A stretch of DNA of 64,000 bases, taken from NCBI RefSeq assembly GCF_000761545.1, contig NZ_JPMY01000010.1, forward strand, positions 186,001 to 250,000, given 5' to 3'. Each line of letters begins with the position of its first letter. Position 1 is the first letter of the stretch. Origin of the DNA: Pseudomonas sp. ML96. GTDB lineage: Bacteria > Pseudomonadota > Gammaproteobacteria > Pseudomonadales > Pseudomonadaceae. A program made the translations under genes and the position numbers. Of the stretch, positions 46,852-47,700 are shown piece after piece. A model generated the notes under the pieces. That model had not been told where the DNA came from. It saw only the letters and a program-made list of their open reading frames with translations, and did no database searches.

Positions 46852-47310
46852 TCAGTCAAAACGGGGAATAATGTTGGCCTTGTCGATCAGATCGATCGGC
46901 AACAGGAATTCGTGGTCATCCACCAGCACCACCACGTCCTGCTCCTCCACACCGCGAAGGAAGCCCTGGAAATTGCGCCGCCCGTCGAAGGGCGAACGCA
47001 GCTTGATCTTCACCTGCTCACCGACATGGGCAGCGAACTGCTCGAGGGTGAACAACGGCCGATCCATGCCAGGCGACGACACCTCGAGGGTGTATTCGCT
47101 GGTGATCGGATCCTCGACATCCAGTACCGCGCTGACCTGACGGCTCACCGCCTCGCAGTCCTCGACCAGGATGCCGTTGGCATGATCGATATACACGCGC
47201 AGCAGGGAATGCCGCCCCTGGGAGATGAACTCGATTCCCCAGCATTGGTAGCCGAGCGACTCGACTACCGGGGCCAACATGGCCTGCAACTGTTCCAGCT
47301 TGCTCGACAC
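46852..47310 (-). CDS. rimP: Ribosome maturation factor RimP
   Basis: A 152-residue factor for 30S assembly with an N-terminal alpha/beta domain and a C-terminal SH3-like domain ([40 protein letters not shown]). The start was set at GTG 47310 (SSKLEQLQ) because GGAGGG precedes it by 7 bases and it gives the normal length. It heads the rimP-nusA-infB run, downstream of two tRNA genes. Confidence 0.95.
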
Positions 47311-47338: not shown

Positions 47339-47361
47339 TAAAAAATGGGCGAAACGCCCAT
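47339..47361 (-). terminator. Terminator-like hairpin in the rimP leader
   Basis: On the minus strand ATGGGCG-TTT-CGCCCAT is followed by a T-rich run, about 30 bases before the rimP GTG. It looks like a leader attenuator. Confidence 0.6.
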
Positions 47362-47410
47362 CCATCGTGCCACCCGACTACAAATGCCGGTGGCGGACTT
47401 GTCCAGCTAA

Positions 47411-47433
47411 CAAAAAGCCCCTGAAAAGGGGCT
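47411..47433 (-). terminator. Intrinsic terminator after the tRNA-fMet relic
   Basis: On the minus strand AGCCCCT-TTTC-AGGGGCT is followed by TTTTT. Confidence 0.8.
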
Positions 47434-47444
47434 CTTACATCCGG

Positions 47445-47518
47445 TTGCGGGGGCTGGATGAACCAACGACCTTCGGGTTTTATGGGCCCGACGAGCTACC
47501 AGACTACTCCACCCCGCA
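47445..47518 (-). pseudogene. Degenerate initiator tRNA (fMet) at the metY position
   Basis: On the minus strand the sequence follows initiator tRNA closely: TGCGGGG acceptor, D arm GAGT...GCTC, anticodon stem TCGGG/CCCGA with three G-C pairs, and T stem GTTGG/CCAGC. But the anticodon loop has nine bases (CCCATAAAA) instead of seven, the T loop has five (TTCAT) instead of seven, the CCA end reads CCG, and base 1 is T, which pairs with A72 and removes the unpaired end that marks initiators. Total length is unchanged (+2 and -2). The site upstream of rimP is where metY lies in many gamma-proteobacteria. It is probably non-functional, though sequencing error is not excluded. Confidence 0.75.
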
Positions 47519-47580
47519 CCAAAGCTGGGCCAAGAGTATACGGACCTAACCCAGGAGGGTCAACCAAACACCAGGAAACG

Positions 47581-47614: not shown

Positions 47615-47700
47615 TGGTACCGAGGAGGGGACTCGAACCCCTACAGCCTATGGCCACTACCACCTCAAGGTAGCGTGTCTACCAATTCCACCACCTCGGC
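47615..47700 (-). tRNA. tRNA-Leu(GAG)
   Basis: An 86-base gene including encoded CCA. It has the leucine pattern with GCCGAGG/CCTCGGT acceptor arms and the D-loop AATTGGTAGACACG. The anticodon GAG sits within CTACC-TTGAGGT-GGTAG. The variable arm GGCC-ATA-GGCT is long, and the T arm is AGGGG-TTCGAGT-CCCCT. It ends 10 bases before the secG stop (47711) on the other side, so it lies in the secG transcript region. Confidence 0.95.

Follow-up and report, generated by a model that had tools for sequence, protein, structure and literature searches.

A disabled initiator-tRNA gene at the metY site of Pseudomonas sp. ML96 and the repeated loss of this gene copy across the genus

The closest described counterpart of the locus analyzed here is metY of Escherichia coli, which codes for tRNA-f2Met and is arranged as metY-rimP-nusA-infB; both loci share the gene, its site, the gene order and the presence of upstream promoters. 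A 1992 study by Kenri reportedly bears, by its title, on the dispensability of metY in E. coli. According to the accessible part of another report (PMC6511841), the E. coli gene is functional, RNase III frees its tRNA from the transcript, and the gene is dispensable when other fMet genes remain. The E. coli gene and the Pseudomonas copy differ in their state: metY is functional, whereas the copy described here is inactivated and its site has been lost repeatedly across Pseudomonas.

Prokaryotic genomes also contain tRNA pseudogenes and fragments, non-functional copies that are mislabelled by tRNA finders (PMC9897764, in the portion of that paper available). The copy studied here is similar to them, in that it is non-functional and receives a wrong label from a tRNA finder, although the erroneous predictions treated in that portion trace back to CRISPR activity or to integrating elements, whereas in this case an original gene is decaying in place, in parallel lineages and often with its fold kept. 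A third point of comparison is the generation of hairpins by template switching (PMC8794818, as far as its accessible sections go), because stems repaired or extended from the opposite arm would resemble part of the pattern found here, although the genes considered there code for functional RNAs and here the tRNA function is gone. The rimP leader family of Rfam (RF01770) is also relevant, since the hairpin that follows the copy lies in a match to it that is weak, scoring 29 bits against a gathering score of 47, but the structured portion of this family does not correspond to the element derived from the tRNA. Both tRNA pseudogenes and a dispensable metY were already known, and the apparently new part is the parallel decay of one initiator gene throughout a genus with its fold kept, a pattern for which no earlier report was found among titles and abstract openings of the open-licence PMC literature.

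The window, by which we mean the whole stretch of 64,000 nucleotides that was analyzed, belongs to a host placed in the Pseudomonas alcaligenes/subflava group by a RimP neighbour search, in which the closest protein was that of Pseudomonas sp. Gutcm_11s (97%). The copy (Table 1) has tpiA, secG (both named from their translations) and a tRNA-Leu(GAG) gene as upstream neighbours, and it sits between tRNA-Leu and rimP, as intact metY does in the loci compared. All 118 loci compared carry the terminator-like hairpin and 116 of them the promoter pattern, whether the site is damaged or intact.

Table 1. Features of the damaged tRNA-fMet copy and its surroundings, in window coordinates
Feature	Position	Strand	Basis or remark
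Intact tRNA-Leu(GAG), upstream of the copy	47615..47700	(-)	ARAGORN, Rfam
Promoter-like TTGACC-17-TATACT, just upstream of the copy	47535..47563	(-)	Pattern search; mean 0.1 in shuffles
Damaged copy of tRNA-fMet (metY site), base 1 through CCG	47442..47518	(-)	Read directly, ARAGORN, alignment to intact relatives
Acceptor stem, 5' side	47512..47518	(-)	Pairs with 47452-47446; U1 now paired with A72 (47446)
D stem	47509-47506 with 47496-47493	(-)	Direct reading
Anticodon stem, TCGGG/CCCGA	47491-47487 with 47477-47473	(-)	Direct reading
Anticodon loop, 9 bases, C replaces T33	47478..47486	(-)	Intact relatives: 7
T stem	47467-47463 with 47457-47453	(-)	Direct reading
T loop, 5 bases, TTCAT	47458..47462	(-)	Intact relatives: 7; equal shortening in 10 other loci
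Discriminator A	47445	(-)	Direct reading
3' end, CCG for CCA	47442..47444	(-)	Direct reading
Terminator-like hairpin and T run, after the copy	47412..47433	(-)	First hairpin of the weak RF01770 match
Second terminator-like hairpin, before rimP	47343..47363	(-)	Downstream of the first hairpin
rimP, followed by nusA and infB downstream	46852..47310	(-)	Gene names read from translations

A sequence-only reading of this DNA had suggested that the tRNA-fMet gene present at the metY site is a broken copy. Direct reading of arms and loops on the minus strand confirmed it, including the four defects it had listed (an anticodon loop of nine bases, a T loop of five, pairing of bases 1 and 72 and a CCG end). 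Relative to the allele of intact relatives, the copy has four substitutions, an insertion of two bases in the anticodon loop and a deletion of two in the T loop. All arms could be aligned, again as proposed: four stems were read, with 20 of 20 canonical pairs formed, one of them now G-U, and the 1-72 pair has been gained. Among the features of a functional initiator tRNA, the three consecutive G-C pairs of the anticodon stem are kept, whereas the C1xA72 mismatch (U1-A72 instead), the seven-base anticodon loop with T33 and the CAT anticodon (now nine bases, CCCATAAAA) and the seven-base T loop are absent; the CCA encoded by intact relatives reads CCG. The copy matches two intact genomic copies with 89.7 bits and 87% identity, which, together with the conserved synteny, indicates that its similarity to tRNA-fMet is not due to chance. 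ARAGORN labels it tRNA-Tyr(ata), and it is missing both from the matches of the Rfam tRNA model (RF00005) in the region and from the 44 tRNAs of the genome. It is a disabled initiator-tRNA gene for which pseudogene is the most fitting name, and it would stand near the beginning of a proposed path toward a hairpin leader.

Two details of the earlier description had to be revised. The U-A pair in the T stem, taken there for a compensated change, is what close relatives with an intact site ordinarily carry, and is therefore ancestral. The combination of +2 and -2, which leaves the overall length unchanged and had been considered a signal, is probably a coincidence, because many other damaged copies have also lost two bases from the T loop, whereas the insertion was seen only here; a linked, length-keeping event was rejected for the same reason.

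The dependence of the cell on another fMet gene, also anticipated in that reading, was borne out by a whole-genome count: contig C41 of this genome (G000) carries two further fMet sequences, both exact and intact, at 91945-92021 and 154358-154434, which make the window copy dispensable. The second is bordered by an N gap, and this gap and the flanks of the two sequences suggest that the assembly collapsed a tandem pair like the one seen in relatives; the idea of a 62 kb island between them was rejected since, on our reading, the flanks and gap fit the collapsed pair. At least one exact intact fMet copy was found in 30 of 32 genomes with a damaged site. One of the other two, G311, has two fMet copies that are both cut by contig ends, so that a complete lack of fMet genes in this genome was rejected; in the other, the fragmented and 91% complete G350, an exact intact copy was not found. 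The 26 genomes with an intact site that were compared usually carry two or three more fMet copies, similar to those with a damaged site, and gain of an extra fMet gene as the cause of the loss was consequently rejected. A plasmid search led nowhere, its matches lying in other genera.

The site upstream of rimP-nusA-infB is conserved in the genus, as had been stated: 360 of 398 Pseudomonas genomes contain the intact sequence with matching upstream context somewhere in the genome, the site itself having been inspected in part of them and at least three (G401, G208, G090) matching elsewhere while their rimP-side copy is damaged. The 38 genomes without this pattern comprise, by our own count, 29 with a damaged site (a single-base change in one of them), six near-intact variants with upstream or single-base differences, and three others (G097, a poor assembly, and G244 and G261, with contig ends). 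A comparison of 118 rimP-region loci (80 from the RimP neighbour search, minus two without the tRNA-Leu anchor, plus 40 further ones, with some genomes shared) yielded 73 intact and 45 damaged sites, with just a single base affected in two of the damaged ones; this proportion is not a frequency, because damaged sites were deliberately enriched in the sample. Comparison of the locus in relatives thus shows that most are intact and that the site has been damaged independently in many other loci.

On a FastTree phylogeny of tpiA, secG, rimP and nusA (112 different rows, some forks being unresolved), the damage has to be explained by 14 changes, of which well-supported branches force 12, and without the two single-base cases the number is 13; when regain is disallowed, on the midpoint-rooted tree, 15 all-damaged clades are obtained. 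The window locus (L231) has L094 as its nearest row and sister (support 95). This sister is also damaged and shares with it zero changes from the intact allele, implying that each lineage lost the gene separately and that the damage in the window is its own and recent. Several lineages have shrunken sites that are beyond recognition (L100, L102, L130-L133), and hence no hairpin at this position is essential. At the other extreme, the only damage in L221 (from G287, a one-contig genome) is a substitution at base 4 of the copy that disrupts one pair of the acceptor stem, and this locus may represent the first step of loss.

The loops change recurrently. The T loop, whose length was assigned by eye, went from seven to five bases in 11 loci, representing at least nine changes among 91 scored rows, or ten without regain, and the shortened loops differ in their letters (TTCAT, TTTAT, TTAAT and others), so it is the length that recurs and not one mutation. 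In alignment A2, an extra 32-38 pair closes the anticodon loop in 9 of 17 rows (eight C-G and one U-A), one of the 17 being an intact reference. The window copy is unlike these at this point, since its anticodon loop grew to nine bases.

Whether folding is kept beyond chance bears on one rival, plain neutral decay of a redundant gene with only the promoter and terminator of rimP retained, which we regard as a possible but unlikely explanation. The window copy alone falls within the range of random decay: P was 0.27 for the pairs kept, the fold energy gave P 0.31 (z -0.44) against a composition-matched null, and z was -0.23 against dinucleotide shuffles, so full stem survival in this copy is not by itself significant. 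The almost complete loss of the element in several lineages also agrees with neutral decay, and so does the finding that genomes with an intact site and genomes lacking one carry about as many fMet genes at other places. Against it stand the damaged copies as a group. In 21 damaged rows, chosen to represent separate losses and including shrunken sites (L100 and L131 align to part of the tRNA only), 18 were more stable than the mean of the composition-matched decay null, with a Stouffer z of -5.41, or -6.36 under a looser null; L094, L145 and L221 went in the opposite direction under the stricter one. These tests superseded a first one on 11 hand-picked cloverleaf-like rows (-5.69). Scores against dinucleotide shuffles were weak for most damaged copies. 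The proposal that the decay is not random therefore holds for the group and is not demonstrable from the window copy alone. The repeated shortening of the T loop to exactly five bases also argues against neutral decay, as does the divergence of the element, which was below fourfold divergence in all eight damaged groups (about 0.2 to 0.7 of its value), although the adjoining leader is about as conserved, so that low divergence is not special to the element.

A further departure from neutral decay was found in a clade of nine sequences (L144, L148, L149, L212-L215, L217 and L220, the T arm of L149 being imperfectly aligned), in which stem columns change more slowly: the difference was 0.105 in stem columns and 0.293 in unpaired ones, and the flanking genes differed by 0.341 at their fourfold sites. 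An imposed cloverleaf is paired in 97% of the cells of this alignment, compared to 34-50% when it is slid, with the acceptor helix 100% paired, and RNAalifold gives the cloverleaf unprompted. Covariation is modest, with three pairs changed on both sides and a score reached by 35 of 500 shuffles. In this clade the cloverleaf outlasts much of the tRNA sequence. Its acceptor helix has also been lengthened, the leader pairing with sequence after base 73. In L103, L106, L107 and L108 the remnant has been remade as a single long hairpin, and three of these four beat dinucleotide shuffles (z -2.3 to -3.6), L106 being the one that does not.

Folding could also be kept in another way, by template-switch (quasi-palindrome) mutation that maintains or perfects hairpins with no selection on the RNA, a mechanism described for RNA genes in the accessible sections of PMC8794818. 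We consider it a tentative alternative, with odds clearly against it. It agrees with hairpins that are locally more perfect, in the anticodon arm of L109 and L116 and in the T arm of L144 and L149. On the other hand, it acts on hairpins with short loops and would not easily keep an acceptor helix whose two strands enclose some 60 bases, and the change from AA to GG in the anticodon loop of L218 and L219 is, on our own reading, not a simple copy of the opposite arm.

The explanation that we favour, and hold to be probable, is a recurrent tRNA pseudogene: other fMet genes make the copy dispensable, its loops break first, and its hairpins are retained in the operon leader. With spare fMet genes present, the copy became dispensable, and it probably continues to be transcribed as the 5' leader of the rimP-nusA-infB mRNA. 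Changes in the T and anticodon loops that destroy tRNA function would then be tolerated or even favoured, and an early loss of the T loop could be favoured if a half-working tRNA were harmful. Once release as a tRNA ends, the folded 5' end may protect the mRNA, regulate it or aid its processing; alternatively, the persistence of the hairpins could be due to hairpin-templated mutation that keeps repairing them. A stronger proposal, which we put forward as speculative and think more likely wrong than right, is that separate lineages have, time and again, turned this tRNA gene into a cloverleaf or hairpin element that sits at the 5' end of this mRNA and is no longer a tRNA, with selection stripping the initiator features (T loop from seven to five bases, anticodon loop closed, ends paired) and keeping or strengthening the fold, since this would stabilize or regulate an operon that encodes IF2, the partner of the initiator tRNA.

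Two other rivals survive much less well. That the copy still yields a working or specialised tRNA is very improbable: all its stems pair, ARAGORN still calls a tRNA at the window copy and at some other damaged sites, and L109 lies above the Rfam tRNA gathering score, but the copy is without the seven-base T and anticodon loops, T33, CCA and an RF00005 listing, and the predicted anticodons vary among lineages with no pattern. A sequencing or assembly error is scarcely credible, since the draft nature of the assembly (47 contigs, with the tandem fMet genes on C41 apparently collapsed) is outweighed by the unique flanks, the six separate changes, a version that is no mosaic of intact copies and the independent damaged versions in many assemblies, including the single-contig G185, G340, G402 and G414.

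The repeated loss of one initiator gene in a well-sampled genus amounts to a natural experiment on the number of initiator genes needed and on the fate of an RNA whose main job has ended while its transcript probably continues. If the fold is kept by selection, the site would clearly illustrate how a tRNA gene becomes part of an mRNA leader, and early, intermediate and late stages of this change could be compared; if it is kept by template switching, the site would be a good place to watch this mutation process without selection for a tRNA. There is also a practical side, as ARAGORN wrongly assigns such copies to Tyr, Val, Thr or Asn. Across the window copy and the other damaged sites at which it calls a tRNA, the labels are Tyr, Val, Thr, Asn or Met, and Rfam searches of ten other damaged loci and the window locus returned tRNA matches only. 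In Pseudomonas alcaligenes MB-090714 (L109:2799-2885), the anticodon stem has been re-paired, ARAGORN predicts the anticodon CAC and the copy passes the Rfam tRNA gathering score; this anticodon would read GUG, yet the T loop has five bases.
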